Shown here in pieces: positions 38,864-64,000 of a stretch of DNA of 64,000 nt (within the stretch, counting starts at the first letter, position 1; each line of letters starts with the position of its first letter). The position numbers and the translations under genes are program-made. The notes beneath the pieces are model-generated. The model worked only from the letters and a program-made list of their open reading frames with translations, was not told where the DNA came from and made no database searches. Source of the DNA: Branchiostoma lanceolatum (taxonomy: Eukaryota; Chordata; Leptocardii; Amphioxiformes; Branchiostomatidae); assembly GCF_035083965.1 (NCBI RefSeq), contig NC_089724.1, positions 20,850,974 through 20,914,973 on the forward strand. The letters run 5' to 3'.

Positions 38864-41800
38864 ATGGGGCAAGTAGAGTTCGGAGCCGGGAGCGCCGCTC
38901 GTGTCGTGGCTGTGTTCGCACAGTTTGTCACGGTGGTCTTGAGCATTCAAGGTATGACTGTACATTAATGTAGTGTACTAGTATATCTGGGACGATGTGC
39001 AAGTCTATTCATTTGATAGTAGCGTTTGCTGAATATATGAAAGTAGCAGGCCGATACAAAACTATGCTGAGTGATGTCCTCTGCAGAGTGGTGGGGTTTT
39101 CGTCACTAAAAGTTGCGGATAGCTAGGTGCTTCTGATATATCATTATCATTACCAGGGGTTATATACATGTGCATTGAAACCTGTATAACTCACCGATGA
39201 AAAATTAGGGGGTTGTGATCTTTGTAATTGGGTGGGTCAAAGCCAGTGGTCTCCGACACACAAGTGCTGTGTATTCGTTCTCTGTATTACCGTTCTGTGG
39301 TTGCGATGGAGGCGTAGAGGTGAAATCTACTCCAGGAAATCGTACCATTACAGAAAGTTTATATTCGGTCCATTAGACACTAAATATGTCCATCCGCCTC
39401 CGTCTCTGTGATTTGCACAGTGGAAAGTAATTGTCACCCGTCGAAAAAGCTCTACAGTATGTTGTGTTCTGAATCCCGTGGGTCAAGACATAAAAACATG
39501 TTATAGGTCAGAAAACGAAAATAAAGTTTTGTACTGCTACACTGATACAAGACGGAAATGTTTGACACGGATTAAGTTCTGTAAGCGTGTTTGTTTGTCT
39601 GCCTGTGTGCCTGTCTTTCTGTCTGTCTGTCTGTCTGTCTGTTTGTTTGTTTGACTGTCTGTTTGCTTGTTTCTTTCTTTCTTTCTTTCTTTGTATGCAT
39701 AGAATCTTCGAAGGTTTTCGTACATCACCGTACTTGTGGAATAGTTCATCGGATTATGGTACAATTGCTACGTATTTTCATGTGATATACCTATACTGAT
39801 TGTATATTGATTCAGTAAATGCTTGATTTGTTGATCAATCTATTAACAAGTATATCAATCTATTTTGTAAGTACACCTATCTTTAGTTCATTTTCTTTTC
39901 CTCAGATTGTTACACGAGAGTTGATGGCAGGATCGTCTATGAAGGAATAAACAACATCACGGACTTCGGGAAGCCTTGTGAGGCCTGGAGCAGACAAGAT
40001 GGACGGGCACACAACTACTGCCGTGCGCCGCGGGCCGGGGACTTACAGCCCTGGTGCTTCGTCCGGGCCGACACGGGGAACCTCATCCAAGCTCGCTGTG
40101 ACGTAGAACATTGTACAGGTGGGTGGAGATACACAAGTACTATCAAACTAAAGTGGTGACACAAATGTGTACAAGAAGAGTAGTTGGCTGCGATGTTGGC
40201 TACGAGATCATACAGGGACTGGTGAAACGTTTGTTTACATCTTTGTATTGTTGTGTGATAGCTGTATGATGTCATTGCTGATACCACTCAGGTGTTGAGC
40301 GAATGCACATATGGGGTATTAGCCTTCCAACTCTGCCCCAATGTCGTATCCTATAGCTGTGTGTACTTAAACCATATGCATCAATCAGACAAAACTGTGT
40401 AGCTATTTTTGATCTCTGTCGTTTGAACGCAGAATGTTATACCCTAACGGGGTCGGACTACCGAGGAACACAGTCCAAGCCGTCAACTAACGAATCTTCA
40501 ACGGTGGAATGCGTGTCTTGGACAGACGAGAGGTATGTCATTGATTACATACCATACATAGCTAGAATGTTGTTGATATAACGTTTTACATAACAGGAGA
40601 AACAGGCAAACTAGGACTAGGACTGACATAAGTTAACGGTGGTAACGTTGGGTAACATAAATTCGCCATTTTTCCGATAATGGTTGACTGAAATCAATCT
40701 AGCAGAACAATAAACCATCTTTTTTTTTCTATTATTCTGTCAGTATCATGTACTATCTTTGCACTAATCATATATATGATAGATTTTGTCTCTAGTCGTG
40801 CTGACACCACAATATTTCAACTTGAAACTACCGTCCGCCGCACGCACAATGACGGTGCTGTCGGACAGGTGTGAACATTATTTCGGGAGAGAAGATTCGT
40901 CTTGAATATCTTACCGCTAATTACATTTTATACAGCAGCTATTCGTTCCATCCTTGGCTTGAGGAGAGTGCTATGGATATAGACGTGTCCAAGTAAAAAA
41001 AATACACGAAAAAACGGCCGTACCGCACACATCAGGCTTTCGGGAACAACCCGTGTGTTGAGTCGGTAGAACGTCACTCAAAGTCAACCCCCACCGTCAT
41101 GGAAATTTGTACATTATTCATCGGGGCGTTAGCTGGATGCCGTAGAAATGGTAATACTACTATGTCCATGTGTTTCTGCTTGTGCTAAGAGCAAACTTTG
41201 AGGAAAATATCGCCATCAGTCCACTATCACACACAACATTTGGACAAAAAAGGGTTCCTCGCAAACGTTTGTCGTCTGACGAATAGCAGGATTCTGGGTA
41301 ACGAATATGGCGGCGGGAAAATTCACCGTAGTGCCGTAGCCATTGGTTGTAGCAACAAAGAGGCGTTTTGAGGATTAATCACACTTAGAGTCCAGTTGTA
41401 GGTTAGCAAAAGAGATTCTAATAAGTTGTATTGTAAATAATTGTGTTGAGCAGGAAGCGGATGTGACATTTGTCTTATAAACCAGCGAACAACTATGTAG
41501 TATAATTCTTCCACGAAGCCCTCAGACTGTGACAATAAGGGACGGAGAGTTTTTGACGTAGCCAACTTCTAATGCATGGTTATCGAAGCTTTTCAGACAG
41601 TGTTCTGAATACGTTAGTCTGTCAAGTTTGCATTTCTAGCGGTATTACTGATGTTGCATCTAGCACATATCCCTAAATACCCCGTTTTCAAAAAATCGCG
41701 AATTTAAGTACCCCGCGAATTTATGTTACCCAACGTTATATGATTATAGCATTACCTGTTGAGTATGGTTTGTTGAGTAGGGTTTGAGAAGTGCAAATTT

Positions 41801-44800
41801 TCATCTTAGTGCATGAGCGATATCGAATTAATAACTTGTGTCCCGCCCATCATCTAGACCGGTCAACACGATCTGTATCAAAGACTCAAGTTATCTATGA
41901 AAGGTTTCCAACCATATTATCAGTAACAAATGTTATTGCACCTGTGTGTTCTAATATCTCAGTGGCGGAAAGCGGTTCAACACCAAAGCACACCCTGACG
42001 ATAAAAGCGGCCTGGGCGACCACAACTACTGCCGGAACCCGTGGGTGGAAGGGCGCCCCTCGCCCTGGTGTTACACCGGGAAAACACCTGCCAGCCACCA
42101 GCAGTGCCTCATACCCAACTGTAAAGGTACGGCACTCTGCATACATGCGACATTCAGACACCTTCATATCTTAGTACAAAGATAGTGCAGATAAGAACTT
42201 AATTGCACGACAATTGTACATAGTACAATGTATCGCAACAACTATCAAAACATGATACAAAATAGAGGTATAGAATAAAACTTGACATATAATGCAGATA
42301 TGACCGGCTGTTACTGCTTCACAGCTATCATAATGTAACATTTAATCATATGAAGGAAATTAGATTCAACCCATACCATTGCCTGCCGCGACAATAAGGG
42401 TCATGATCGGGACGATGATATCTCTTAGCTGCAAGAGCAGTCCAGGTAAATGACTGTCCGGTTATTCCCGTACAGTTCCAGGGTACCTGGGCTGTATCCC
42501 TAACTCGGACACTCCGCTGCCCCTGTGGAACGTGCTCCGTACCGCCAGCTTCTCTGCGCTCACCATAGCACAATGCGTAAAGTACTGCCGGGACCACGGT
42601 ACCCAATATGCCGGATTCCGGAACGGAAACCAGTGCATTTGTATAGCGGGGGCGAGGGATGTGTTCCGGAGTCTACCCGAGGCTACCGACTGCAACAAGA
42701 AATGCGCCGGGGACTCACGACACTTCTGCGGTGGTACCAACAGCACTGCACTGTTTGATAGTAAGTTTCAAGTCTATATGTGTGTAACGTTAGGTGTGTG
42801 TGTGTGTGTGTTTGTGTGTGGGGGGGGGACGTGTACGTGAGTTCGTGTATGCTTGTTTCCACGCGTAGGTGCGTATGTGTTGCGTGTGACAACTGAACGG
42901 CGTGTTTGTCTCTCCCCAGCGCGGATGGGCGCGTGTGGAGGGTGGAGGTACGGGATATACGGCACCATCCACTCGCCAGACTTCCCCAGTGACTACCCGA
43001 ACGGCGAGATCTGCTCCTGGTCAATCATGGGGCCAGAGAACCACGTACTCAGGTAAACAGTCTGATGTCTTCCTCTCAAACTAACATGTATTTCTAAATG
43101 TATCTCATCCATTAGATAGTAAAAAGTATCATCCGACTATAACCACCAGGTATCTATCGACATATAATACATGCGTGCTCTTTTTTGGTCAGGTTACACT
43201 TTGCAATGTACGACATCGCAGACAGTGAGGATTATGTAGCAGTTTGGGACAACAGCACGCGGAGGAGGGTCCTCCTTACCCCCAGCAAAGATGGCTACGT
43301 GGTCAACTCTAACCAAGCCGGACTCCACTTTGTCTCCGACAGCGCTAAGAACGGACCAGGGTTTAGTCTGATCTTCGAAGGTAAGTTATACCTAACCCCT
43401 GAAACAATGATCGGTCTCCTTGCCGTTACTGTCCCTCATGTGTTCTCAGCTAGCTTTAACACAAAGAATCACCAAGGAAGTTAAATTCAGCCTTCTCATT
43501 TTAACCTCCTTGCATTCACTAATTCTTTTTTTTAGAAGATTTTATTGGATCACCTTGAGAAGCGGGCTTAATACTTAGGGGAAACAGAAAACAGAGTTTC
43601 GTTGTCTACTTCCCCCATTCAATGTCTTTGAGGTCCTTTTACAGGAAAGTCAATGTTTCATTTTGTTTTGTTTTATCTTTCTGCATCAGCCGTTAAGAAG
43701 TGCCCCAAACCGGACATTCTCAACGGAAAAGCGGACGCGGATTCCTTCCTGCCCGGACAACTCGCGAACGTCGAGTGCGCCCCCGGCTTCAGGGCGATTG
43801 GGCCGACAAAGGTGATGTGCGAAAACGACGGAACCTTCAAGAACCTGCCTGAGTGTCTTTCTGAGAACGCAACATTACCGACTCCCATGTGTAAGTATGT
43901 TACTTTGAGCATGACGACACTCCGTAAATATTACAGTTTAACTGTCCATAGAAAATAAACTGAAGGGGGGAGGGTGCAAAGTAAGACCTTCGGCCTCCAG
44001 TGAGATGCAAGACATTAAACAAAGCAATTGAATTAATTGCGTATAAGCACAGTACATTCGTACTCAATTCTCAGTAACAGTAACAAGCCGAACAAAACAT
44101 TAGACTAGACACTAGTCACACCTATGTTGGTGTCCGTCTTTGATAAAGGGCATTTAGTCAAAACATGAAATTTCTGCTACAAAGAAATGATTGCCTGTAA
44201 ACTCAGATTTACTTGCCTACGTTTGGAAGCTTACTATTGTGCTACATTCTTTAGCTTTCAGCAGCAACAAGACCACAGATGCGTCCGTGGTCTCAACAAC
44301 ATCTCATCATTTATCAACTAGAAGTAACAAGCCACTTACCACAAGCACAAAGGATCAGGAAACCACCAAAGTGCCAAAGACACCTGTACCGCCGTCTCGC
44401 CCAAGAACACAAGGACCAGTAAAGACAACCTTGGTTACTACTACTACCACAGGTGTGTTGTGCAACATTTAAAGTCCAAAAATATGCGCTTAAGTGTACA
44501 AACATACACAATCACCGCGCACACGCACGCAGATACGCAAACCATCCTGCGACGTTCGTCCTTTACGTTTCTCTTCATGTTTCCTTTGATTACTGTCCGC
44601 CATCAGCTGAACATGGCAGAGAAATATTTGTACCTAGGTATGATGCTCATATACTACATGAATACATAACGAATACTAAGTCACGATCACTTCCAGAAAC
44701 TATGACACCATCCAGTGCTGTCAGCAGGCCGTTCAGCACCAAGGAGAAACACCACACAACAGAGCTCCAGACCACCGAGTCTCCCGAACACTCAAACCCC

Positions 44801-46342
44801 GACTCGTCTTCAGGAAGCACGCAGGAAGCCGGGGATACTACAAGCGGTAAGATTAGTATCTGGAGCTCGTATTAAAGATTTTGTAATCTTTTTGTAATTT
44901 GAGTTTAAAGTATGTCTTGACTGCCCTAACTGTTGGGTCTGGGAAGGGCTTGGTGAGGTTGAAAATGGCAGGTTGAAAATGATTGTTAGATTTGAAGAAA
45001 CGAAAGAAATTTGGTGTGCGTTTACACTTTGAAAGTTCCCGTTGATTTTGACGTCTGCTTTTGTTTTCTCTACGTGTTGCATCTCAGCTGTGGTGATTGG
45101 GGTGGTGGTGTCCATCGTTCTCATAGTCGTCATCAGTCTACTCATCTACATCACCTGTGCCGTGTTAGCTGCTAAAAGGTACTGTTTCTTCTGCATGGTA
45201 AATAGCAAGGATCAAAGCTTGCTAAAATACGAGGTGTTTTCTCTTCATATTTTCCACAATCATATCCCGAGTGTGTTAGGGTGACTGCGTATCGGTCCCG
45301 TTCAGAGGTAGACTTCCCCCGCCTTCTGGCGAAATGTTACCAAACTGCAGCTCTCGATTAGTTGGATTTTGTGACTGGCAGCCATATTGTTGTTTTCGAA
45401 CAAGCGGATTGGCAGTAGTATATTTTTGGCACGTCGAGTTTTAGTCGGTGGTCTCGAGCAGAAACAGGAAACAGAAAGGGAAGCAATATGTTTCCCATCA
45501 GAGGACATCATTACGATATTTTTACACATCTCACAAGGATATAAGTCCATAAAGCAACATAATGCCATGCACCCTTTCTTTGCATTTCTGTTCTTTACAA
45601 TAAGAAGTAACTGGTAAGGTGCACTCAACATCTTTTTGCGATTCGCAGTTTGTTCGTGCAGAATGGTTTGTGTTGTTGTTGATATCCAATTACGTGCTGT
45701 ATACATGTAAATGATGTAATCTTGTGCTGCTGCCATTTTGCAAGAGTTAGATGCGATATTTTATCATACTCCATTACAAACAGAGCAAGGCAAGCCAGCC
45801 TTGAGAATGGACAGACAGAGAGCGCCGATGCCGAAGTCAACGTCCCTCTAAAGGACTTCGGCGAGGACAGGTGAGGTAAACGTAACAGCACTTCAAACAT
45901 TTCTACTTCTGTACCATTTCACGTCACCAGGGTTGTTCACACTTATGTGGCGGACACTGTATACATCGTTTGATAGCACCATGGTAACCTGCATTGCTGC
46001 ACAAAAGTCCAACCGTAAGTGCCCCGACAGCGGCACCGTGCTGTATTAAACCTATCAATTCTGCCACGGGTTGTACGCACTTTCTGCCGTGACCCAATGA
46101 CTGATAATAGCTAAATGGCAGGGCACGTCACTTTCATGTTGCCCTGAATTTAGACAACGGTAAAGAGTAGAAGAATATATATACATGTAACATAAGGATG
46201 TGTTTATATTGGAATCGGCCGGAATCCGTGCTTGCATTAGCATCCTGTTTACTTTGTTTATGTTTGTTTTGTTTGCATTAGCACGGCTAATGATGAAGAT
46301 GATGAGCAGACTGCTAAGGATGCTGTCCTGGGAGAATTGTGA
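38864..46342 (+). CDS. Receptor gene A: kringle2-WSC-CUB-Sushi, short tail
   Basis: Predicted type I membrane receptor, KREMEN-like. Exons: 38864-38951, 39906-40118, 40433-40532, 41963-42126, 42476-42760, 42920-43052, 43193-43380, 43690-43890, 44255-44452, 44697-44846, 45088-45178, 45784-45870, 46282-46342; all junctions keep frame, 652 residues. Order: signal peptide (1-29), compact kringle (30-101), full kringle over two exons (101-189; HNYCRNP, PWCYTG), WSC (189-284), CUB over two exons (284-391), Sushi (391-458), Ser/Thr-rich stalk (458-574), hydrophobic span (574-604), ~48-residue tail. The tail is acidic, has no tyrosine and so no ITIM. KREMEN proteins are Kringle-WSC-CUB membrane receptors that bind Dickkopf in Wnt signalling; ligand and role here are unknown. 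The CUB has only the first cysteine pair. First of a head-to-tail array; gene B starts 782 bp after its stop. Confidence 0.85.
39598..39695. repeat. (TGTC)n / (TTTC)n microsatellite
   Basis: Runs of TGTC pass through TGTT into TTTC repeats in the first intron of receptor gene A. This yields Cys-Leu-Ser frames that are not real genes. Confidence 0.85.
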
Positions 46343-47124
46343 CCACAGATATTTCAATTTCTTATCCCACCGCTCTGGAATTTAGGATAAGCACGAAGTG
46401 TTACAAATTGCTTCTGTTTCAAATGTGGCCAATGCCTGTGTTGTCCGAGGCTTACCGTTCACGTATTGAGAAAATCCATGTGAAAAGGTTTATGTTGCGT
46501 TTGGTGGAATTGTTATCGTGTTCAGGACGTGTATTTTGTAGGATTATCTCTGATGTTGAAGATCCAGTATTGTTGCCAGCAAGCATATCCGTAGAATCAG
46601 AGAAAGGAACGGTTATAATGCATCAGCTTTCCAGTAGAACAAACCAGTGCCGTAGCAGGAGGCAGTTGTCAGCCGTGTGAAGTTTTTGTTTGTTGCAAAG
46701 GAGACGGTTTGAAAAACAAGCAATAAAAAACGAACTAATCGACTTTGTCCATCCAGATACTTCTTTTTGCACGCATATATTCAAGTTGAAACGTTTGTTT
46801 AACTGTTTCTTTGTTTCTTTCTTTGCTTGCTCGTTTTCTGTACACTCGTTGTGGTCGGTTTAGTTTGCTTTCAATTTTGTATCTTAACTCACAGTCAGCA
46901 CTGAAAGCATTACTCAGCAATTCGCAACGGCAGCTATCCATAACGATTATCTTCGTGGGCCACACACCTTATCAGCGCCAGACCGACAGGAAAAGCAACA
47001 AGGTCATTTCCGGCGGTTTTCTCACATCAGTAACGCCCGTTTCTTTCCGGAGCAGTTCCAGGAGGAATTATTTCGTGTGTTGTAATATTGAACTAGTGCA
47101 AGCCGCAATCGTTAAACCGCGGTC
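46343..47124. other. Intergenic, receptor genes A to B
   Basis: Contains the probable 3' UTR of gene A with an AATAAA near 46,722, then the 5' flank of gene B. I see no TATA box and no separate gene. Open frames here run across both strands without splice sites. Confidence 0.5.
46722..46727 (+). terminator. Poly(A) signal candidate of receptor gene A
   Basis: AATAAA lies 380 nt downstream of the stop codon of gene A and about 400 bp before the start of gene B, a sensible position for 3' end formation. Confidence 0.5.
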
Positions 47125-50100
47125 ATGGCATCTGTCCACGTTTGGATGTCTCTTTTCTTCTTCTGGATGCTCAGCGCCGGAAAATGCCAACAACAAAATA
47201 CAAAAGGTGAGCTTCCGTTATCTCTACCATATAGCTTGTTTGATAGTAAAAGTTATAAAGGCCACAGTCACAAGTCTTTCGAATCTGAAGTGAACATTTA
47301 CAACAGTCTGATCAAGATTTTACATCTCTGTGTTGGGTTTGTGCAAGCGTAATGATTTTTCCGACACAAAATTCCCATGTCTACATTATTTACAGGAAAC
47401 GTATACTTGCCTGTTGTGGGACAGATTCGTATAGTCATGTAATGTATAAGAATGATGCTGTCTTTATCACGTTGAATTCCGCGTTCCTTGGGAAGCTATC
47501 CAGATAAAGCATCACCATAAGTAAGCGGGCTTTCGACAAGTATTGCAGGCAAAAATTCTGACGTTCCAAATAAAATAAAGAGAGGAGACTGTAGATTATT
47601 TGGCCACTTGTGCACCCTGTTGCCAAAAGTCAAGTTGATTTTCGAGGAGTTCAACAATAGGCGATGTGACGCGTCCATTAATTTGCTCAACTGCATTTTT
47701 TTCTTGCAGAATGCTTCACGAGAAGTAAGACGGCAGTGAGATATGAAGGACTCCTTGATGTGAGCAAATCCGGACAGCCGTGTTTACCATGGAGCGAGAC
47801 AGAACTTCCGTCTGTCGGTAACCATAGTTACTGCCGGGCACCCAGACCACAGGACCTGCAGCCATGGTGCTACATCCAAGGGAGGGAATCCCTACTGGAG
47901 AAACCGTGTGAGGTCGAACACTGCAAAGGTAAGTTGTACAATATAAATCTAGTTAGCTGTGACATTGCTGTACATCATTTTCCAAAGCTGCAAGCATTGG
48001 TATCTGCAATGTGTTGAACTGCTACTCAGTGAATGTCTGGATGCTTTTTTCCTGAACGCTAGTGGTCCTCAATGTCACAGACCGCCCTCTACCCGATTGC
48101 ATTAGCAATGCTGAAGTCAACGTCCTCTCACATACCCATATCTTCCAAATCACCATTCTTGGCTTAAGAAGACTTACGCTTTAACAAATATTTCCAGAAT
48201 CTGCCCACCTCGGATGCTTTCGCCTTGACAAACCACCAATTGAAGTCCTTAACGCCGTGCCTATCGCGGAAGACTCTATGACAATCGACCGCTGTCTTCA
48301 GCTTTGTAGAATTAGACTTCAAGACTACGCAGGACTGTCAGGCGGAGACAAGTGCTATTGTATCTTCTATGCTAAAGAGCGATTGACTGAAGCTAAAGAC
48401 TGCTTGACGCCTTGCAAAGGTAACGAAGAGCAGAAGTGTGGGGGCGACACTAGCATCGACATTTACGATGGTAAGTCTTGCAGATGGCTTGCATTCAATA
48501 TTTCATTACAAATGCAGTATTGTTCATGTAAGAATCTTGACGAATGACAAGCGTGTAGTATCTGATAGATAGACAAAAAGTTCGCGGTCTTTGTGACTAC
48601 AACCGTGCTTACTGGACAGTACATACGTACAGTACTCCTGTTTTATTATTTTGTAGTGAATATGGGCCGATGTGGAGGTAAACATTACGGACTGGAGGGG
48701 ACCGTATATTCGCCAGGATACCCCGGCTTGTATCCGAATGGAATCAACTGCACATGGGATATAAATGTTCCTGGGAACAGAATCATCCAACTGAGGTTCA
48801 AACACAGCAATATTGGTTACCCAACCGATATCGTGGACGTTCAGGACATGGTAATTTCCAAGGACCGTGCCAGAATCACACAATGGAACCAAAGCAGACG
48901 ATTTCTCAGTTCATCTAGCCGTGTACGAGTGTATTTTAGGTCGGACACCAAAAGCAATGGAGGCCAGTTTACCCTTTCCTACAAAGGTCAGTAACGGTAT
49001 TTCATCTGCTATACTTACAAGTGTTTTTCTTCCTTTTGTGATATTGTATCGATTGTATTGTATTGTATTGTATTGTATTGTATTGCATTGTATTGTATTG
49101 TATTGTATTGTATTGTATTGTATTGTGCAGTTACAGCGTATGGCAGATTTCAAACTAAGCTACCTTCTATTTACAATCTTTCTCTCGTAGCACTCACCAG
49201 CTGCCCTACACCGACCATCCCCAACGGGTCCCTCGAAATAAACAGGAAGATTAAGACGGACAGAGCTCTTTTCAAGCCAGGGGAAGAAGTCAACTTCACC
49301 TTCAGCTGTGACGCGGGCTATCAGAAGTGTAGGAAGAAACGAAAGTCGGCCACGTGCAAAAACAGCGGTAGTTGGAGTAAACTACCAGAGTGTCGCCCTG
49401 ACACTTTGCCGTGTGACGGGCAAGCACCTACAGGTTTGTCATCTATTGAAAACTAAGAAGCAAACGTCAATATCAAAGTGAAGCCCGGTTCACAGTACAT
49501 GTCTTTCTCATCAAATGTATTGTGACGCTTACATACTGATATGATGTTATACGCCCTGTCATCTCTCAGCTGGGCTTTCCATTCCAACGAAGTCTTATTC
49601 AATGTCTAACATCTCTCTCAGACGCATCCCAAACAGTGCCAGAGACATCCACTACAGCACAGTCAAGCCACATGAAGACAACACATCCATACACTGCTGA
49701 TAGAACTCTGCGCACATCAACCATTCGTGACCATGTCACCACAGCAAGATGGCAAACCCTTTATCAAACCTCAATGATGACGTCGTCACACATATCTACC
49801 AGTTCTTCACGCACAGAGACTGTAAGTGTAACTTACTCGTCGGAGCCTGTAGTCGCCACGACCAAGCCAAGGGAGCCTGAGGACCCCAACCTCTATGAGG
49901 GACCAAAGCAGGGGGTGGACCATAACAGTGAGTTATTTAGCTAGCTACGGACAATGATTGTCATATTGCTTATGTTTGAAAATTACACATGTGAGAAAAA
50001 ATGTAACTACTGTATATCGAAAGCAATGGAAGACGAAATGCATTTTTATCTGCCCCTATAACGACCAGGAAGCCGCTTAAACTCATTGCAATTTTTGAAA

Positions 50101-52066
50101 CGTTACTGATGGAAACAAAACTACAACCTTGTTAACTTCACAAAACCCACTCATTACAGAAAATGTGGGGCACTTCGTCTTGCATTGCTTAAAAAAAAAG
50201 AAGTCAAAACTAAAAAGTAGTTCTTATCAGAATAGTAACTCACTGGGGTAATTGTTTTTTATTCAGTGATAATCATTGCATCAGCCGTCGGCGGGAGTGT
50301 ACTATTGGCTGTGGGTGTTTTAACCTGCATAGTGATCTCCAAGCGAAGGTACGTGTCCCTCTATCACGGCATCGATCACCTCTGTCACACAATACTGTTA
50401 AAGTTCAGAATACTACAAATTGTATAACACTGACAGAGTTACTTCTCACATGAAGAATCTAGTGATAAAGAAACTTGCCTAGATGAAATGGATATTATAA
50501 AATGATGCCCCACTGTGGTGTCACTCCTTTATGGACAAATGTAGTTTCATACGCGTAACACTATGCCAAAAGATATATCATTAGCACTATATCTCGGATA
50601 GTATGACGCATACTGAACGTTCAAAACGTCGTGCAAATCAATGGAAGGCACTGGTCTCTACAAAGAGTCTCTCTTCACAGGGCCCGGGCAAGAAAAAGAT
50701 CACGACTGGCTACTGCACCCCGTGGGCACAGCAGGGACAACGAAGTCGTGGATGACGTCCTCACTTACAACTTCCGCACGCTCGCCAGCACTGCCCAGAT
50801 CAGGTCCGTGTGTTCTGCAAACATCAGCAATTTTCATTCGTCCTGCTTGCCCTCTTTGTAGTAATGGCTTTTCTGTAACCAGAATGATTTGACAATGGTT
50901 GATGTGTTTTTAGGCTACAAATCATCTCGACTGTAGACGGTCCTGGATCCGATCCAAATGACCAAAGTCCGGACGCCGGCTACGCAACAGCCAGTATGAC
51001 GAAGAAGAAGGTACGTGTTGATGGATTTAGAGATTTGCCAGGAGGAAATATTGCAGATGTGAATGCATGAAAATGGGAACCTTTGCACGTAAATTTTCTA
51101 TTTCTAGAGAGAGAGATATAAAGATAGATAGATATATATATAAACATACATATGCATATCAGACAAGAATGTCGAGGAACTTGAGATAGAACGCTGTGTG
51201 TCGAAACAAAATTATCCACACTGAGTGATGTGTTATGTTTACTTTCATAGATGCTGCCGGATCCACCGGGTGAAGCTGTGTATCAAAACGCTGTCATGTT
51301 CAACACCGCTGAGAGGGCATCCACGAAGAAAGACCTATCATCAAAGGCCCCCGCCATCTACACAAAGGTCAAGAAGAAGAAAAGGCATGTTGACAGTCCA
51401 GGATCCACCCTTGGGTCCCAGACATCCAGGTCCGAGAGGGACTTTGATACCTGCGAGGCAAAAGTCCGTCCAGAGCCATGTCCGCGCACATCCGCGCTCT
51501 ACGCCAAGGTCAACAAGAAACGCCCCCCGGAACCGCTTCCGTGGGAACTGGTAAGTCAGGTCCTGGTCTCATCCTGTTATGCCTCATTCTTGTAATAGTA
51601 TGTAAGTCTACACCTAGATATGACTAATCCATAAAACATATACCTAAATGTTAAAACCTGTTAACCTTTCGAACTTTCCCTGTTGCCACACAACTCAATT
51701 GAGCCTCATCACCACTGCCAAGAATTGTGTCGCTACGACTTGCAAGGTGCTTTTGATAGATATCTCTGGTGACATGACTCTCTCCACGATTCATTCTGAT
51801 TTGTTAGCACTGATACATATGACATTTCTATCTGCTCATAGGAAGAACTGCGTGAACCGGATCCGGAAGTGACATATCCGGAGCTGGACCATGTGCAGTG
51901 CCATGTTGCAGAGGTCACGGAGTTCCTGCCTGACGTCACGCCGTCCCACAGCGAGGGTGTGTATGCAGAAATCCGTGACATCATGGTACAAGATTCAAGA
52001 GGGTCGAGCAGTGACGAATCTTACAACACGTATGATAAGGCCGCCCATGGTTACAGTAGTGAATAA
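47125..52066 (+). CDS. Receptor gene B: kringle-WSC-CUB-Sushi with ITIM tail
   Basis: Predicted type I receptor, paralogue of gene A. Exons: 47125-47206, 47710-47928, 48198-48470, 48657-48986, 49191-49433, 49622-49927, 50267-50348, 50681-50803, 50914-51010, 51251-51550, 51842-52066; all phases match, 759 residues. Order: signal peptide (1-27), one compact kringle (28-101; HSYCRAPR, PWCYI), WSC (101-192), CUB in one exon (192-302, two cysteines), Sushi (302-383, an extra cysteine), Ser/Thr stalk (383-485), membrane span (485-512), ~247-residue tail. The second kringle of A, C and D is absent. The last exon has EVTYPEL (Tyr697), a strict ITIM that would recruit SHP-type phosphatases when phosphorylated, and GVYAEI (Tyr726). 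Further tyrosines lie in VYQNA (a YxN Grb2-type site), AIYTKV and ALYAKV. Signalling is inferred from motifs only. A LINE fragment and a TATTG repeat lie in introns. Confidence 0.85.
49041..49127. repeat. (TATTG)n pentanucleotide repeat
   Basis: About sixteen copies of TATTG, with one TATTGCATTG interruption, in the intron between the CUB and Sushi exons of receptor gene B. The tract ends about 65 bp before the Sushi exon acceptor. Confidence 0.9.
49995..50210 (+). mobile_element. Degraded LINE 3' fragment
   Basis: It matches, with many changes, the C-terminal coding end of the LINE at 15.1-16.6 kb. Parallel segments are GGAAGACGAAATGCATTTTT versus GGAAAATGAAATACATTTCC, then AAACCCACT..GAAAA.GTGGG and AAGAAGTCAAAAC. 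The frame is broken. It sits in the intron before the transmembrane exon of receptor gene B. Confidence 0.6.
51100..51150. repeat. AGAGAGA/GATA-rich simple repeat
   Basis: A short AGAGAGAGATA..GATAGATAGATATATATA tract in a tail intron of receptor gene B. Confidence 0.8.
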
Positions 52067-53166: not shown

Positions 53167-56100
53167 ATGGCAACAGCAACATTTTTGTCCCTGGAGTTTG
53201 TTCTTATACTGTGGTTTCTGTGGTTTGAACAGCAGTGGGCTAAAGAACCTGAAGGTAGGAAGTCGTCACATCGCTTTGCCATTCATGTGATTTTTGCGTA
53301 GTCTTTACATCGTTGATTGAATGCACGGGCGAAAGGTCATGATAATGCCATAAAAGAGTCATACGCCCCAAATTAGGTTTGCACAATTTTTCTTGGTTTG
53401 GTTTTATCCCCAGCAGAGATAAATAGGGGTGAAAACGTTTCTACAGACATTTCAATGTGCTAGTGCGCCGTCTGTCCAACATTGTTTTTGCTAAATCAAA
53501 CGTCATGACTGGTAAATTGTTCTCGTAACATAACTTACCACATGTAACGTTACATATATAAGATAAAACTCTGCATGTATCAGAATGCTACAGAAGAGAG
53601 AACGGTGGTGTGAAGTACCAGGGAATATTACACGTGTCCGAAACCGGAGAGTCCTGCGTAAACTGGAATGAGACCGACGTAGTGTTCGCGGGGTCGGGCG
53701 GCCATAACCACTGCCGCGCCCCGCGACCAGGGGACCTGGTACCGTGGTGCTACGTGAGAACTGAGGAGGGGCAGTTGGTGGAACGTCGCTGCGATATACA
53801 GCACTGTACAGGTATGTAATGTGATACGCTGTAAGGGTTTGTTTTACGTAGTGCATGCATGGGGAGTGCACCCGTCTTTCGGAAGGGAGGTAAAATGGGG
53901 GCCCCGTGTTCGAGGGCGTGCCTTAAGTTGAGCACTTCAAAGGAGACGGGCTAGCAACACATCCCTGTAAAAATATACCCTGCTACAGAAATAGCAAGGT
54001 AACTTGCTGAACTATGTGCCACTAGGCACTATCGTCGAAGGTGAACAACAACAATGCATATTGTATACAAATGATTTGGGTCAGTCTTCCATGGATGTAT
54101 CGATGAGCTATCGTATTCCCAACACCAGAACGATATTGTCATATGGGATAATGTTATGTTGCTCATTTCAAGAGTGAATATCATGCAAACACGTGAATCT
54201 TTATTTCCCACATTCCCAGTTTGCTACACCGTGACTGGAGCTGACTACAGAGGTAACCAGTCCCGCCCGGAGCCCGGTGGGAAGCCGTGCGTGTCGTGGA
54301 CGGACAGGGGAACCTACAACAACAAAGGCGTCCACGCACACAACCAGGAGTATCGAAACAGAGGCATCGGAGAACACAACTACTGCCGGAACCCCAGCAC
54401 CTACTTCAGCCCCTGGTGCTACACTGGTAGAGGACAGACTAACTACAGACCTTGTCTTATATTGGATTGTAAAGGTAAAGATTTCTTATGTTGCCAATGG
54501 CATCAATGTTGTTGCTAGCAAGACCTACATGTATGCCACGAGACGCCAGGTGACGAGACTGACGCCAGCTTTTGCTTATGATTGCCCCAATCAATACACT
54601 GTGGTAGAATTTTCAACGATTGTACATTTTTCCGTTTTCCCACAGCACCAGGGTACTTAGGCTGCTATAGCGATGATGATGGGAACCTCATTCCTAAAGG
54701 AGTGACACCTCCAAAATGGTCGCTAACCATCGAGTCCTGCCTGGAGCACTGTCGCCTGCTTTCCAAGCAGTACGCTGTCATTCGGAACGGACGAGAGTGC
54801 TACTGTACCAGCGGCGTGGTCAGTACGGCAAAACCGCTCAGACCAAGCAACGCTTGTGGTAACCGCTGCCCTGGCAACTCTTTCCAGTACTGCGGAGGGT
54901 ATAAAAACATCGTATCCGTTTTTGACAGTAAGTTGCCAACGTCACTTATTTCATTGGTGAAATATTGCTCTTGGATTCATTCGTGGACAAGAGTATGTTT
55001 GAAAACCTAATAAATGTATCAAGGGAAACAATGTTTTATTTTCAGCAAATATGGGCAGGTGTAACGTCTCTCGGTATGGACAGCGAGGCACCATCTACAC
55101 TCCCAACTATCCTGGGTCCTACCCGAGTTCGACAGATTGCTACTGGAACATCAGTGTGGCGAAGGACCACATCATCAAATTTAGATTCCAACACTTCAGA
55201 ATGAGCGAAGACAGCTGGGTGAGTGTGTCGGATACTGCAGACAGGGCCGGCGGAGTGAGGATCACCGGACAGGACCCTGTGGGCGGGTACGTCACAAGTT
55301 CGGCAACTGCGTCGGTGTACTTCCGGGCACGTCCGTCACAGAACGCCGCGAGTCCTCGGGAAAACGACGGCTTTCCCAATGGATTTATCCTGTTGTTTGA
55401 AGGTACGTTGTGGTGTTGGTCATAGCCATGAGACAGCACTTCACATTGCTGTAGAATACTTGTGTAAACTTTATGATATCATCAATCACATAACTCTTAT
55501 ACAATCCAGTGAGACATGTAAAGATCATTTTATTGTGTTATCATTATCAGTATCAACTTCTTCGTTGAACGTGTCTTTAAGCCGGCGTCACAATTCATGC
55601 GAGCATCGGCCGATTTTGTAGATCGCCGGAAGCTCGCCGAATTTCAAATTCGCCCGAGCGTCGACCGTATTTTTCACTGAAAACCTGCCCCGTCACAAAT
55701 TGAACGGAGCTCGGGCGACGTCCGTCGAACACTAATAATCATAAATCCCACATAAGACGGTACCATCTCTTGGACACGGACGAAGTCAGAATCAAATGGC
55801 CTAGTAACAATCTCAAATTTAGACCAACTTTACTTTCTGAGTTGTGGCAAATCTGTAGGACACGAGTGAAGTAGGTGGGCACACTGAAAATAACCACATA
55901 AAGAGGAATTTTGTTATAGACCAATCAAAATACAAGTGCAGGAGCCACAAAGTCAACAGATCAGTCGTTTAACCCCGATCCAAACATTTTCAGCAAACGG
56001 AAATCGACCGAGGCTCGGGCGAACGCCGTCCGAGCTTCGACCGACCGTTGATAAGCCTATCGACGCCCTGCCGACGCCTGGGCGTGCCTCGGCAGACAAA

Positions 56101-59100
56101 CATAGATCTATAATGACTCAGTGGACTTTCAACTAGTCATTTGTGGAGAAAACACTCAGGAAGTGAAGGCAAACCTCAAAAGTCAAGCCCCAAATCATTA
56201 ATAAACAAATTGAAGCATCCAAACCAATACCTAAAAAGAAACAAGAAGCATTGTCTTCTGTGTCAACATTTTATTTATAATATTTCTTTTTGAATGAAAA
56301 TTTAACTTTGCATTGAATTGTCTTTCATTACAAAAGTTTGGCAGCATTCTTCGACAAGTTGATATTAGTATTAGTTAATATTACAATATCATTTATCATC
56401 TTATGTTATAAACCAAACTGTCGTTTCCTTTTATCTATAAACAAGAAGGAGTTCGGCCGAGGCCCGTCCAAGCTCCCATCAACACCTGCACAACGCTCGC
56501 CCGAAGCACGCCTTACTTTTCATGAGTCGGCCGGAACACTGACGACGGTCGTCCGATTATTGATCAAGGCCCGTGCGAGGCTCGCACGAGGCCGAAGAGT
56601 TCGGGCGACCTCCGACCGACCAAAAATCGGGTCTAAAATCCTCGGATGCCCGCCCGAATATTGGCCGAGCGCGGGGCGTTGCTCGGGCGAGCTACGGGCA
56701 AACTGTTGACGAGCTGCGCGAGTTCGAAAATCGTCGCCGAGGCCTCGCTGAATTTAAGCGCAGCTTCCAGTGACACGCGAACGTCGGCCGAGCTCCGAAA
56801 ATTCGCCCGAAGCCCGTAGAATCGACAGGACGTCGGTCGTACTTCGCCCGAAAATCGCCATTTGGAGCTCGCCGACAAGTCGGCCGAGCTAAATTCTTCA
56901 TTTGTGACGGGGGCTTTAACAACCATATTTGATGCAGCCATCAGGAGATGTCCGACACCAACAATCACCCATGGAGGCTTCGACGTCATGCGGCCCATGA
57001 CGGTGGTCAGTGACGGCTCCATCGTGACCGGAGACACCGTCCAGTTCTACTGTGATGACGGCTACCGGCTCACCGGGCCAGAACGTTTACTCTGCACGGA
57101 GAATGGGGACTTCGACAAAGACACCCCAGTGTGTTACATTCCAGAGACCATTGTCATTGTAATTGCCAGAACTACAAGTAAGTTTATAAAAACATAGTTA
57201 CGAATTGCTCTACTTGACAATGTCATTTCTTTGTCTGTCATCGGTTTCAACCGCTCATAACTAAACTTCGACGTGAACATGTCTTCCTTTCGATGTGATA
57301 TTACAGGAAGAACTACACCGGGACCACTTCCGCTAACGTCCAGAGAAGGACCAGCTCTACGCCCAAGAGCGCCAGGAACAAGCGTGAGACCAAATATAGC
57401 AACACCAACAACTTTTAGCACCATTTTACAACCAGCCGCACGAGTTACAACTGCACAGACATCTACACCCACGCAGAGACCTACAACACGGCCACTTCGT
57501 CGACCAACTAAAACCAAACGGCCCCCTTCATCTAGGCCAACTCAATGGACAACTGTGCCATCACGGTCAAGGGATCGTTCGACCGAGAGAACTGCACCAG
57601 ACGTCACTGTAACGGCAAGGTCCAGTGTCACACTACTTGATGGAGCCACGAAGGATGAAAAGACCACTTCAAAGGCACCCACTGATTCAAGAAAGCGCCC
57701 AACCACGGGAGATGAAAAGGGAGTGCTTGTCTCCACTGACACCAGGCCAGCAGAACGTAAGACCTTCACATTTCAATGCACATCATTGTACTTAAATGCT
57801 GCAACAGATTTGCTGTTTACGCACATACATACATGCATCATTACTGTAGACATCCAAGTCTAGCATTACATACCTTCTGACTCGACGTCCAGCGTGCAGT
57901 GACCAACATGATTTCACTAAACAAGCTGTTACGTTTGACGGAGTCTTTTTAACCACCAGGGCATGATTTTTCGACAGCTTACTCGACGAAAACAACATCC
58001 CTTGACGTGCCGTTTACTGCGAGAAGCACGCCCTTTATCTCGACCAAAACAACTGGATGGGTACCAGTCTCCTCCCCACACAAGTCAGGACCATTCCACA
58101 GCACCTCAACCACCGAGACCAGGCAACAAACAACCGGTGTGCGGAAAGGTCTCCCAACCTTGTTCACACAGTCACTGCCAAAGACAACGCATCACACGAC
58201 AGAATCCACCAAGACGTTCCTGACGACCCCCGCTGAAGACTCGAGGACACAACAGCAAGAGGTCACCAACGACCCAACCGCAACGGCCCGCAGATTGGGA
58301 TTAAACAGTAAGATATTTCTGAAATCATACTATAGCTAGTACATTAGATATGCATTTCATTCCCATTTATCCTTTTCAAAACCTCCTGTCTGGACGAGTT
58401 GTTCTGTTTCATGTGTTGAAGGCATGGACGTGGTTGTGATACCTTTTTTTTTATTGCAGTCTTCGCCCTGATCGCTATCGCTGTGGCGGCCTTGGCTTTC
58501 CTGTTCCTACTGCTGATACTGGTCATATGGAGCTGTCGAAGAAGGTACGATGATTTATTTTCAGAGGACCCGTTTTCATCAATATGTGAGACATCATGGT
58601 AACTTTGGTATCTGATTATAGCCGTCCTGTACTTTTCGTGTCCTCAACTCAGGAACCACAAGATCAAGCATCAGAAACTGGAGCTGCTGAACTACAGGAC
58701 AGAAATAAGAGCGCCTCCTACTGGCGGCACCACACCGGAGAACGTGCCGATGTCAGACATGTCCTCAAGTGGGTGAGTTTTGTATCTTCTACAATTGTGT
58801 GTAAATCACTAAAACCATGAGCATAAATGATGTTCTGTATACTCTACAGCGATGTAATAGCCTACAGGTACCGTCAGAACGACAGCTTGAGTGTGTATAG
58901 TGATATCTTGTGTTTCAATTTTATCCGTGAATCCATGTAACGTTAACAATATCTGAAAGCCAAGTTGAAATATACAAACCCTAACCGCTCTGTACTCTGA
59001 TTCAGACAGCAGGGTGACTTAGTGGCAAATGGGTCGGCTGGCCCGAAACCAAGTGAAGACGCAAACATGGTAAGTTGCTTCGGACGTCTTTCTCCTCTCA

Positions 59101-59574
59101 TCTACAAACTTGGCAGAAATTTCGGCTTTATATTCTTGTGACGTATACATCGGTCTTGAACAAGTTTTTATGATGTAAGAAGATGGCCAAGTCGAATCCT
59201 GAAGAGTTAGCCCTTCTGATTCTGTGTCAAAACATTTTGCTACGACATGTGAGTCAGTTTTGAACATTTTCGAAGCCCTTCTGAAAGCACGTACTAATAG
59301 CAACGTACATACATATTCACGGGTCATTACAAACTTGAAGAGTTAGATGCGTTTCTGCATTAGTCCAGCAGTTTTATTACAAACCACAAAATCAGTTTCG
59401 GTGCTCTCCCTTCTTCAGAGCGATGATGACTGTGACATTGAACCGGAAGTGACGTATACGGAACTGGACCTGGCCATAAATTGGGACGCTCCTGTCAGAC
59501 GAACGCAGCCGGAGACGGTGTACGCTCAAATACGCCCTCCGTCAGACAAGACTGGAGCTACGTATGCCGTGTAG
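53167..59574 (+). CDS. Receptor gene C: two kringles-WSC-CUB-Sushi, ITIM/ITSM tail
   Basis: Predicted type I receptor, paralogue of A and B. Exons: 53167-53254, 53584-53811, 54220-54474, 54646-54927, 55046-55402, 56938-57177, 57307-57756, 57960-58307, 58460-58544, 58653-58772, 58850-58867, 59006-59069, 59419-59574; phases match throughout, 896 residues. Order: signal peptide (1-29), compact kringle (30-106; HNHCRAPR, PWCYV), full kringle in one exon (106-191; EHNYCRNP, PWCYTG), WSC (191-285), CUB in one exon (285-404, two cysteines), Sushi (404-484), long Thr/Pro/Arg-rich stalk in two exons (484-750), membrane span (750-778), 118-residue tail. The tail has an 18-nt microexon and ends with EVTYTEL (Tyr858, strict ITIM), TVYAQI (Tyr880, ITSM fit) and ATYAV (Tyr894). 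The 22-residue spacing suits tandem-SH2 phosphatases; this is inference. The exon matching gene B's 300-nt tail exon is missing. A 1.3-kb transposon sits just upstream of the Sushi exon. Confidence 0.86.
53865..54050. repeat. Candidate SINE-like dispersed repeat
   Basis: CTTTCGGAAGGGAGGTAAAA and a CGTGTTCGAGGGCG phrase (loosely like a tRNA B box), followed by ACAACAACAAT, resemble a dispersed amphioxus repeat I recall. It lies in the second intron of receptor gene C. The assignment is from memory only. Confidence 0.35.
55581..56915. mobile_element. TTAA-flanked non-autonomous DNA transposon
   Basis: The left end GCCGGCGTCACAATTCATG and right end (reverse complement AGCCCCCGTCACAAATGAAG) form terminal inverted repeats, and TTAA sits immediately outside both (55577-55580 and 56916-56919). 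This fits a piggyBac-type TTAA insertion. The interior lacks a transposase frame. It has CpG-rich outer zones full of CGCCCGA/TCGGGCGA words around an AT-rich core. The right end is 22 bp from the Sushi exon of receptor gene C, so it forms the 3' part of that intron. Confidence 0.7.
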
Positions 59575-61368
59575 TAATGATTAAGTTACAGATATAGGAG
59601 AGCAACGAAAAGTTGCACATCACAAATTGCCGTCTTATTACTGAACAAAATCGCATCGTTTGTTGGTATTCTAATGATATTGTCCCATACAAGACTTATG
59701 TAACAAGACTGGCTATGTTTAGCATATTAGTGCTACTGCAAAATAATCTTTTTGTATGTAATTGTAGGTTATTAGTAGGTTAATAGCAGGTTATGTAAAT
59801 ATACATGACTCAACAGATTACCAAATTGTGAAAACAGACGGTCACAGATATTGCTGTTTGGTACAAACAAATTACCACGCAGATATATTTCCGACCAACG
59901 TCGTTCATTTCAGACCTGTTAGTGGTCTGATGTTTTCTAGTAGTTTACAACTGGTATCTGATTATCAAGTTAACCAAAGACACGTATTTATCAAAGTGCA
60001 GCAATATTGATAATCATTCTTTTGTTTGATAACCAGTATCTCAATCCGCATTCTATTGTCTAATGACACCCCTTACGTACACTCAGTGCGTTCGATATCA
60101 AAGAGTTTCATGACACAAGACCAACAGTTCCTGTTTCAATTAGTTGAATAAACTATTGTGATTATTGTTGCAATAAAGCTTTAAATGCTTGCAAGATGCT
60201 CGTGGCCTTTTCTTGTAGAGAGCGAACGTGCTGTTGTCTGGATTTGTATATTTAGTATGAAATTGATCGGAATATTGGGTTCATTGCAAAAATATTTGTC
60301 TACACACGATTTCAGTCCATTCTCATAGCTATCATCGTCAATATAGACGGAGAAAACAAATAGAATATAAAAACATAGTATAAATACTTGTATCAAACGT
60401 TCAATGTTGAAACTCAAGTGCTAAATGTCCGTGGGAAGGTTAATATTTCCCCTTCCGCGCCTGGCTGATGAAACCCTAGGGTGGCCAAAATCCCCTGGCA
60501 AAAGTATTCTCCCTGCAGCCAGCGTAGCTAGTCTGTTAGAGACTATACAGCTAGCTGGCCACTTTTCCTATCACATTCGACCTAAAGTTTTCTCAGAGGG
60601 GGCGCCCGGTAGGACACCAGCTAATAAAAAACATCCGATGTCAAAGGCCAATTGCCTAGGTCGTTACAGTGGTGGTTAGTGGTAACCTCAGGTCATCCCT
60701 CCACATAATAGGCGGATGGCGGTTGGCTGGAGACAGGAAACATTCCGATATAGATAAGGGACTTGGAAGCTGGGATTTCAGTTGGATTAGGGAAGATCCG
60801 TTAGATGCGGTCTATTCATTGGTGTCCAAAATGTAATAATATGCGCTGGCCTTTATAAAACGGCTATCTGCGGAATTATGAGTGTCAATTTCGTTACGTA
60901 TACTGAATAATTGTTGAGGATAGAACGGGCAATGGTCATGTAGTTCAGTTGAGTAGTTAAGAAACGCGAGGGGTTAAACGCACTTTTGGCAAGAAACATT
61001 GACAGGAATAGTCAGACAAAGTCCACAAGAACAGTCAATTTTCTCTCCTGGACTTAAAAAAACAACTTTCGAACAGGAACGTAATTCAGGCTATGGTTGT
61101 TTCGTGTGTGAGTGTGTTTTGTGCGTGTCTGTAACGATGATATTCAATAAAGAATTGAAATTAAATACAAGCTACAACATTCTACCTTGTCGAAAGAAAC
61201 GAGCCTCCCCTCAGCTCCCCTCCTGTAACCTGACAGTGCAGCAAGGACGTCTGACTTCCCGTGTTGATCTCATCGTCAGGAAGGGGTATCAACAATCAAT
61301 CCTGCTCCGGAATAGAGCAAAAACACGAGATGGGACCAGGTTTGTTGTTCAGTCGAGCTTCAGGCACC
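59575..61368. other. Intergenic, receptor genes C to D
   Basis: Contains the probable 3' UTR of gene C with AATAAA at 60,147-60,152 and 60,172-60,177, then about 1.2 kb of flank before gene D. The segment from 60,420 to 60,760 is GC-richer with CCCTGGCA and GGGGGCGCCC words, but I recognise no gene in it. An AG/CT-rich stretch near 61,200-61,230 may belong to the gene D promoter. Confidence 0.5.
60172..60177 (+). terminator. Poly(A) signal candidate of receptor gene C
   Basis: AATAAA about 600 nt downstream of the stop of gene C, with a second AATAAA 25 bp upstream at 60,147-60,152. A GT-rich element between and before them fits a 3' end-processing region. Confidence 0.45.
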
Positions 61369-63876
61369 ATGAAGGAGAAAGCTTTCATCCTCGGCTTAGT
61401 GGCCCTAGTCTGTGCCCGAGTCCGCGCCCAAATCGAAGGTAAGATTAAGAACTCTTGTGAACTCTCGTCTATACCACTTATCAATATCACCTTAAGTGTG
61501 ATTTCTTGATTAAAGAAAGCTTGACGCAAAGCTGATAACTCGGTTTAGAATTCTGTTTAGAGCAAAACCTCGCCTTCAGGAAGACCACAATTACTTGAAT
61601 TTTGGTTAGCGAAGATAATTGTTTCATCAGATAAACAACTACTAGTATGTGAAAACAGTTGCTTACAAGTCACGAACATCCGGAACGTCTTATTCTGATA
61701 GCTATATATTACAGTATCCTATTTAGCTTCTTCTCAAAAATGATGAGAAGAGTAGCTGATAACTTGTACAATGCGGAACTTTTCAAATCGCAAATCTCCA
61801 GATCGGTACCTTTGGGGAAAGCTCCCATCAGACTTAGCTGGGGAAATGGCACGTACTTCTCAATAAATAACAAGTTAGTTACGTTGAAAGTGTAAGGTGA
61901 AAATTGATACTGTTCATGGCATATTGGAACATACTGCAGAAGATCTAAGTGTCAAAGGAAATATAAGAACTACAAGCATTTTATTTGGGAACAAGAAAAA
62001 ACTAGTATCTGGCCTTTAGGAATAGGTAAGTCGTTTGAAATCTCGTCTGATGTGATGAAGGGCAAACTTTGACCTCTAAGTTGTCCTTGGATGGTCACTG
62101 TAGTCGCTGATGTCAGAGATAACCATCTATAGTTTGTCACAGACAAATGACCTACATTTGATGTAGAGGCTACACCTCTGGTCAGGAGATCGGCTTGGCT
62201 GCGTCTCTCTATTCACAGCCGAAAGCCTCTGTAATCTTGGGCAATTTAAAACGATGCCCCCCAGTCACTGGGCGTATAGAACACAGCATTCAAATGTATT
62301 CAGTACGTTGACTTTCTGTATACCAGTGTGAATGTAGCTAGCCTTTTGCGCAAAACTGCACAATTTCACAGTAAAGCAAAAGACAAGCCTAGGTAGGCGA
62401 TACATAACATAAGATCGGCATCAATCGGCATGATAAAAGTATACAGTTTACTGTCTTTCAAAGTAATATAGTGGTTCTGTCAGGTGGGAATATATTGGTA
62501 TGGTATTTGTTGGTCATTAACACAATAATAGCAAAACTAAATTTATAAAGAATATATACTTTGATACACGAGTTATGCGACTGTCCCAGTTCCAAAGCGG
62601 GGCCCGGTCGGGCAGCTGGTGGGAACGACAAATATGATATAAAAGACAACAAAAGACACAAAACGCAAGAAAATGACTCCTAGCCATATATAGTGTATTT
62701 TCTTGATATGCATTCTTTATTTTCCGTTTCGCGAATCCCGGTCGGGCCCCGAATTGGAAATCGGGATCGTAGCATAAAACGGTAAAAAAGTAAGTCTCTA
62801 ACAGGTTTGTCTCTGATTCCTTTCAGAATGCTACACCAGAAGAGATGACCGTGTGGTGTATGAGGGAAAGGTGAACGTGTCTGAGTTCGGGGACCCGTGT
62901 CTACATTGGACCGCTACTGGCGGACAGCAACTGCACAACTACTGCCGGGCCCCGCGGGTAGGGGACCTCAAACCCTGGTGCTACGTCCTGGTCGGGGGGA
63001 AATCACTAGTGGAGGCACAATGTGACATCCAACATTGCACAGGTATTATTAGGCTTCTTCTTGTTTTTGTTGGGTACTGAGTACGAGGATGTTGTCTGTA
63101 GACGACCCTTTTGTCTTCCATTCGACCTCCGTAACACCTCCATTCCACTTGGGCGGCGACCACGCTGTGACCGAGCGATTTTAAGAGCGCTCAACGAATT
63201 TCGTGTGTTTCAGTGTATCTTTTCAGCCATACTTTTGAATTTTGCGTGATATTCCAATTATGAAGTAAAGGGATACACAAATCAAATTTAGGTCGCAGCG
63301 AGGTCGCAGCGCGATCGCCGTCTACTGGAATGGGGGCCTAAGCGAAACGGTTGATCAAATATACGCAGAACCAGTGCAGTAATCCTCATGTCCTGGTGGA
63401 TTTACTGCTTTATAGAATGCTACACTCTGACGGGAAGTGACTACAGAGGAAACCAGTCGGAGCCGTACTCGGGCGTGAGAACAGCGTGCATGTCCTGGGC
63501 TGATACCGGCGGGGGGAAACAGGTGTCCACTGCCAGATATCCTGGAGGATCGCAGGGCATCGGAGAACACAACTACTGCAGGCAAGCTCTCTCTTCATCT
63601 GGGCGTAAAAACGAAAGGAAAAAGCTAAAATCACAATTGTTGCTAGTTGCACCCCATTCCCCTCAAATATAAATAAATTTTAAGTCTACAAATGTTTCCA
63701 CCTCAGCGCACTAGCAACGATGATCACTTTTATTTCTGATGCTTGCAGGCGTTGAGATGCATTTTTCTTCCTTTCCCGGTGTAAACCTAGGAACCCTGAT
63801 GGCCGGTCCACTCCTTGGTGTTACACAGGACAATTCGCTGGAAATGCGCTAGGATGTCACATACAGAACTGTAAAG
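61369..63876 (+). CDS. Receptor gene D: two kringles, 3' end beyond window
   Basis: Start of a fourth receptor of the array. Exons: 61369-61438 (signal peptide, 23 residues; an in-frame ATG at 61,330 would add 13), 62827-63042 (compact kringle; HNYCRAPR, PWCYV, CDIQHC), 63416-63581 and 63791-63876 (full kringle; EHNYC split from RNPDG, then PWCYTG). Phases are 1,1,2,1. The intron inside the second kringle begins GC instead of GT: the conserved YCRNP motif pins the junction to CAG|GCAAG. After 63,876 the donor is duplicated 33 nt downstream in frame. By analogy with A-C, WSC, CUB and Sushi exons should follow beyond the window; its tail type cannot be known here. An in-frame continuation is expected from phase 1. 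Confidence 0.8.
62586..62762. mobile_element. ~177-bp MITE with GC-rich terminal inverted repeats
   Basis: TTCCAAAGCGGGGCCCGGTC at the left end is matched by the reverse complement of GGGCCCCGAATTGGAA at the right end, with AT-rich DNA between. It lies in the first intron of receptor gene D, ~65 bp before the kringle exon. No clear target duplication was found. Confidence 0.55.
63135..63342. mobile_element. ~205-bp MITE flanked by TAA
   Basis: The left end CACCTCCATTCCACTTGGGC and the right end (reverse complement GGCCCCCATTCCAGTAGACG) are inverted repeats. TAA lies just outside each end, a 3-bp TWA target duplication as made by PIF/Harbinger transposases. CpG-rich GGTCGCAGCG words lie in both halves. 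It sits in an intron of receptor gene D between its two kringles. Confidence 0.55.
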
Positions 63877-64000
63877 GTAGGATTGAGTTTGAGGTACATC
63901 ACTGTAAAGGTAGGATTGAGGTACATCAATGCAAAGTTCCGAAACTTCCGAAAAAAAGGGAAAAGACTGATCAGTAGCAAAATGCATTCAACTATACGCA

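Follow-up and report, generated by a model that had tools for sequence, protein, structure and literature searches.

Four tandem KREMEN-like genes in the amphioxus Branchiostoma lanceolatum, two of them with a shared tyrosine-motif tail exon

Four neighbouring genes in the amphioxus Branchiostoma lanceolatum raise the question of whether receptors built around the extracellular core of KREMEN have kept the work of KREMEN or have been put to another use. The genes, here called A to D, lie between positions 38,864 and 64,000 of a stretch of 64,000 nucleotides (the window; assembly GCF_035083965.1, contig NC_089724.1, positions 20,850,974 to 20,914,973 of the forward strand), a region that we read in all frames. 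We tentatively propose, with a probability of roughly 0.45, that they are diverged tandem paralogs encoding KREMEN-derived type I receptors, two of which (B and C) carry tyrosine tails of an inhibitory type, and that they possibly act as recognition receptors. The part that is new here is that B and C, within this KREMEN-like cluster, share an exon with tyrosine motifs, a feature absent from the original prediction made for this DNA.

The gene models are predictions from the genomic sequence alone, with splice sites scored by a simple hand-set scheme. All four genes lie on the forward strand, A to C are complete and D is cut by the end of the window, and no internal stop occurs in any of the four models. 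Gene A (38864-45874, 12 exons, 633 residues) encodes a signal peptide, a first kringle (K1), a second kringle (K2), WSC, CUB and Sushi domains, a stalk, a membrane span and a short tail; gene B (47125-52066, 10 exons, 718 residues) has the same order with K1 as its sole kringle and a tail of about 210 residues; gene C (53167-59574, 12 exons, 890 residues) repeats the order of A with a long stalk and a tail holding the motifs described below; and the 5' part of gene D (61369-63876, 4 exons, 179 residues) runs from the signal peptide through K1 and K2, the window ending after the second kringle. Of the 34 introns in the four models 33 are GT-AG, and the remaining one, in D, is GC-AG. Where an intron separates two extracellular modules its phase is 1, which fits the expectation for shuffled modules, and phase 2 introns are found inside K2, inside CUB and after the membrane span. 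A hydrophobic N-terminus is predicted for each gene, and hydropathy places a membrane span after a stalk rich in serine, threonine and proline (41-52%) in A, B and C.

Pfam searches of the spliced proteins recovered Kringle (2.4e-18, two stretches), WSC (2.5e-13), CUB (2.3e-11) and Sushi (2.3e-07) in A; WSC (9e-15), CUB (6.8e-12), Sushi (4.6e-07) and Kringle (9.8e-08) in B; Kringle (3.5e-19, two stretches), WSC (3.1e-15), CUB (7.3e-10) and Sushi (9.5e-09) in C; and Kringle (4.3e-24, two stretches) in D. The kringle of B, at 32.7 bits, falls slightly below the curated Pfam cut-off of 34.3; it keeps the six cysteines and aligns with the other three first kringles. Six cysteines are present in all seven kringles and eight in all three WSC domains, and the Sushi domains hold four (A), five (B) and four (C). 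The domains map to A K1 (39906-40118, a single exon of phase 1-1), A K2 (40433-42126, in exons 40433-40532 and 41963-42126 around a phase 2 intron), A WSC (42476-42760), A CUB (two exons, 42920-43380), A Sushi (43690-43890), B K1 (47710-47928), B WSC (48198-48470), B CUB (48657-48986), B Sushi (49191-49433), C K2 (a single exon, 54220-54474), C WSC (54646-54927), C CUB (55046-55402), C Sushi (56938-57177), D K1 (62827-63042) and D K2 (63416-63581 and 63791-63876); the membrane span of A is encoded at 45088-45178. A repeat of 17 TATTG copies (49042-49126) sits inside the intron between CUB and Sushi of gene B.

In a search with one query per modelled domain, each of the 16 was recovered with the corresponding domain of another cluster member (E from 1.3e-28 to 7.1e-05), and the same 16 queries found no copy at E < 0.01 outside 38.8-64 kb of the window (best 0.032). 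Synonymous divergence (dS) could be computed for 12 of 22 paralog comparisons, the remaining 10 being saturated, and exceeds nonsynonymous divergence (dN) in every one of the 12, so that the genes do not look like decayed copies. Much of what the original prediction had laid out thus stands: four same-strand tandem genes with a KREMEN-like core, a signal peptide and compact kringle in all four, the continuation of A, B and C into WSC, CUB, Sushi, stalk, membrane span and tail, a Sushi domain and mucin-like stalk beyond the KREMEN plan, and neighbours separated by 0.8-1.8 kb (from stop to next ATG about 1.25 kb for A-B, 1.10 kb for B-C and 1.79 kb for C-D). The extra kringle that it described is present in A, C and D and missing from B, which has the single compact kringle.

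How close are these proteins to KREMEN? Human KREMEN1 is the best match in the PDB for the ectodomains of B (8.1e-37) and C (4e-38), the two that were searched. As in the DKK co-receptors KREMEN1 and KREMEN2, the order in A, B and C is Kringle-WSC-CUB followed by a membrane span, the layout of a type I membrane protein with a linker, and A to C have the same numbers of kringle and WSC cysteines as KREMEN1 (ectodomain structures 5FWS and 7BZT). In contrast to KREMEN1 and KREMEN2, which have one kringle and no Sushi domain, two kringles are found in A, C and D and a Sushi domain in A, B and C; further departures from KREMEN1 are the tyrosine tails of B and C, the lack of a KREMEN-type kringle in B and the absence of most contacts for DKK1. 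Of the 12 DKK1-contact residues that the available part of the KREMEN1 complex description gives (PMC5014086), A keeps 1, C 2 and B 3, and D K2 keeps 2 of its 6, counts that take KREMEN1 as sole reference and depend on an uncertain loop alignment; one of the 12 positions is gapped in the alignment for every one of the four genes. Of the four positions of the calcium site in the CUB domain of KREMEN1, A keeps three, B two and C none. In kremen 2 of Xenopus tropicalis a phase 0 intron interrupts the WSC region (PMC3927609), whereas WSC is a single exon in all three models here.

Over the kringle-WSC-CUB core, A is 36%, B 32% and C 31% identical to human KREMEN1, and identity among A, B and C, at 32-39%, is hardly higher. 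This near equality suggests that the array is old or fast evolving rather than freshly duplicated. We considered a recent duplication and judged it unlikely on core identity, though a comparison restricted to the kringles shows them nearer to one another (D K2, for instance, is 55% identical to A, 52% to C and 42% to KREMEN1). The picture of an expanding receptor family, drawn earlier from differences in domain count and tail, accordingly survives as one of tandem paralogs with differing tails and is weakened as one of fresh expansion.

The two kringles appear to be of different kinds, judged from profile bit scores against solved structures alone. The K1 domains of A to D are short and share the block CRAPRxxDLxPWC in all four genes, which underlies the region's only four-copy direct repeat of at least 40 bases; those of B, C and D are 43-55% identical to K1 of A. 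The profile for K2, the second kringle of A, C and D, scores 71.7 bits with KREMEN1, the top value among solved chains matched by one kringle only. The K1 profile, on the other hand, reaches 40.4 bits with KREMEN1 against about 45 with tPA, ROR1 and one uPA entry, up to 48.8 with prothrombin, 50.5 with HGF and 39 with the other uPA entries. Multi-kringle chains (plasminogen, HGF, angiostatin) obtain higher total scores in both searches. By these scores we class K2 as KREMEN-type and K1 as a compact kringle of non-KREMEN type. In A and C a KREMEN-type kringle stands beside WSC; K2 is present in D as well. No K2-like match lies between K1 of B and its WSC exon at 48198, and B probably lost this domain. 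With a compact kringle and no K2, B resembles KREMEN plus a Sushi domain, yet without the KREMEN-type kringle.

The intron positions within these domains vary: K2 is interrupted at 40533-41962 in A and at 63582-63790 in D and is unsplit in C, and CUB is split only in A, differences that represent intron gain or loss between the paralogs. At D K2 the donor sequence ACTGTAAAG/gtaggattga (the slash marking the splice site) is present twice, 33 bases apart (63877 and 63910, within 63868-63920), a small tandem duplication over the splice site.

If the ectodomains tie the cluster to KREMEN, what do the tails add? The last exons of B (51842-52066) and C (59419-59574) share EPEVTY(P/T)ELD, a full immunoreceptor tyrosine-based inhibitory motif (ITIM) with valine at -2 and leucine at +3, read as EPDPEVTYPELD in B and EPEVTYTELD in C. 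The pattern (I/V/L/S)xYxx(I/L/V) is thereby matched by VTYPEL in the B tail and VTYTEL in the C tail, and by nothing in the A model. Both exons have a second tyrosine motif, VYA(E/Q)IR, found in B within EGVYAEIRD and in C within TVYAQIR, where it fits the pattern of an immunoreceptor tyrosine-based switch motif (ITSM), a fit that also arose in 3.4% of 20,000 shuffles of the tail. In their best ungapped ten-residue match the two exons agree at 8 of 10 positions, a value reached by none of 1000 shuffles, and the rest of the two tails agrees at 4 of 10 at most. The earlier statement that the tails differ is therefore right outside the last exons and had overlooked the exon that B and C have in common. 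EVTYxELD resembles, we believe, the tails of vertebrate KIR and LILRB receptors. A PDB search with the last exon of C gave no matches. An alternative joining of the C tail, at acceptor 59421, was discarded for its poor score; path enumeration led to a small extra exon (59006-59069) with a good acceptor at 59419, the ITIM frame being unchanged.

Several observations weigh against a signalling role for these tails. Shuffling the tails 20,000 times yields at least one ITIM in 27% of cases for B and 12% for C, so that the pattern alone is not significant, and some likeness between the last exons of these two genes is expected by descent, since they are paralogs. The YxxPhi sites of the tails could equally be endocytosis signals for AP-2. 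The tail predicted for A, some 30-40 residues long, has no tyrosine motifs, and the sole match in frame to an ITIM between 45180 and 47120, at 46752, lies outside any exon model; the tail of D lies beyond the window.

The last exon of A (45784-45874) is the least certain part of that model. We tried it as a homolog of the tyrosine exon and found no support for this, as the likeness was reached by 122 of 1000 shuffles for B and 565 of 1000 for C; a role of A as an activating partner acting through a charged membrane-span residue is likewise unsupported, the predicted span having no charge. At 45743 and 59339, upstream of the predicted last exon of A and of that of C, stands one and the same 13-base stretch, AGAGTTAGATGCG, which has no further occurrence on the forward strand; as no significant likeness is seen between the two exons behind it, the pair may be due to chance.

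Taken together, these results lead us to propose the following course. The K2-WSC-CUB core of the ectodomain shares its ancestry with KREMEN, and we infer that this core gained a compact kringle on its N-terminal side and, close to the membrane, a Sushi domain carried on a mucin-like stalk. A ligand would be bound by the ectodomain of B or C, upon which a Src-family kinase might phosphorylate the ITIM and the second tyrosine of the tail; a phosphatase with SH2 domains, of the SHP or SHIP type, could then be recruited and damp the signalling of the cell. Gene A, with no ITIM in its model, may encode a partner, a decoy or a member that signals differently. The ITIM-like tails of B and C hint at a recognition role in place of the usual task of KREMEN. 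A stronger version, in which the cluster is a KREMEN-derived immune or allorecognition family that has left Wnt regulation, with kringle-WSC-CUB as the recognition head on an ITIM/ITSM tail, B and C inhibitory and A devoid of motifs, seems to us rather unlikely.

The main rival is that the same tyrosines serve endocytosis, B and C being endocytic or scavenger receptors whose YxxPhi sites bind AP-2 and which bring bound ligand inside, in the way that KREMEN1 takes up DKK1-LRP6. B has four such sites (YPEL in the ITIM and three further, YAEI, YTKV and YAKV), as many as turn up in 2.3% of 20,000 shuffles; C has two (YTEL and YAQI; 10%). The available text of PMC3522622 describes internalisation of KREMEN1 via clathrin and AP-2, through an LV pair and in the absence of a typical tyrosine or dileucine sorting motif. 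C also contains an LV pair, in its small predicted exon, and A has neither this pair nor a tyrosine motif; however, as far as that source goes, tyrosine sites of the kind present in B and C are not known from the endocytic function of KREMEN1, and the shared EPEVTYxELD is a full ITIM, which goes beyond what YxxPhi requires. We hold this endocytic reading to be unlikely. Next comes retained Wnt regulation, according to which the genes are this lineage's duplicated KREMEN orthologs and still act on LRP5/6 and DKK. The Kringle-WSC-CUB core, the best match of the B and C ectodomains to KREMEN1 and the calcium-site positions kept in A and B speak for it; the scarcity of conserved DKK1 contacts (with the caveats on reference and alignment given above), the missing KREMEN-type kringle of B and the added K1, Sushi domain and tyrosine tails make it quite unlikely.

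All modules of these proteins are common in adhesion or protein binding, and, given how readily an ITIM appears in shuffled tails, one may also imagine homophilic or matrix adhesion proteins with no signalling or immune role and with incidental tyrosine motifs; as B and C resemble each other in the tyrosine exon and not in the remaining tails, we regard this as improbable. Least credible, and very improbable indeed, is that the exons belong to one very large gene or to pseudogenes. Same-strand placement and short gaps would suit this idea, but every gene opens with a start and a hydrophobic N-terminus of its own, and a membrane span and a stop are present in A, B and C alike, which makes four separate genes likelier than one giant gene, and the open frames, conserved cysteines and dN below dS in the computable comparisons argue against decay. 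The reading of A to D as KREMEN-derived receptors, with B and C carrying inhibitory-type tails, thus remains the one we favour.

Elsewhere in the window, on the reverse strand, an exon at 31687-32244 matches Pfam DUF4603 (6.4e-21), which we take to be the KIAA0232 family, and a 982-residue open frame at 17381-20329, with no Pfam match at 0.01, may, by its resemblance, be the large exon of the same gene. A reverse transcriptase fragment at 15124-15996 on the same strand (RVT_1, 9.4e-21) is probably part of a non-LTR (long terminal repeat) element.

Among the matches listed in the open-access literature (titles and openings of abstracts), we found no description of this architecture. Should the tails work, a Wnt co-receptor ectodomain would have been combined with a tail of inhibitory type, and ITIM receptors would have arisen here with neither immunoglobulin (Ig) nor lectin domains; the finding names the tyrosines to mutate and points to a new place in which to seek recognition loci in non-vertebrate animals. 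Parts of this picture have parallels. An expansion of kringle-bearing receptors is reported for amphioxus, with ten genes for Kringle/Somatomedin B Adhesion receptors, which, unlike the proteins described here, are G-protein-coupled (PMC2246102). The amphioxus receptor BbLcLRR bears ITIM-type motifs that, according to the accessible portion of PMC8211107, are phosphorylated by Lck and inhibitory in Jurkat cells; it is likewise a non-vertebrate receptor with such motifs, but has an unrelated ectodomain of leucine-rich repeats (LRR). The fester co-receptors (FcoR) of Botryllus, likewise type I and clustered, contain a Sushi domain and have tails carrying an ITIM, YxxPhi sites or a hemITAM (a half immunoreceptor tyrosine-based activation motif). 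They differ in having one V and two C2 Ig domains, whereas no Ig family domain was found in A to D in Pfam searches up to E = 1; their description names Ig and Sushi domains and nowhere uses the word kringle (PMC12065747). BbLcLRR and FcoR are precedents, outside the vertebrates, for receptors with ITIM tails of the kind that B and C may represent.

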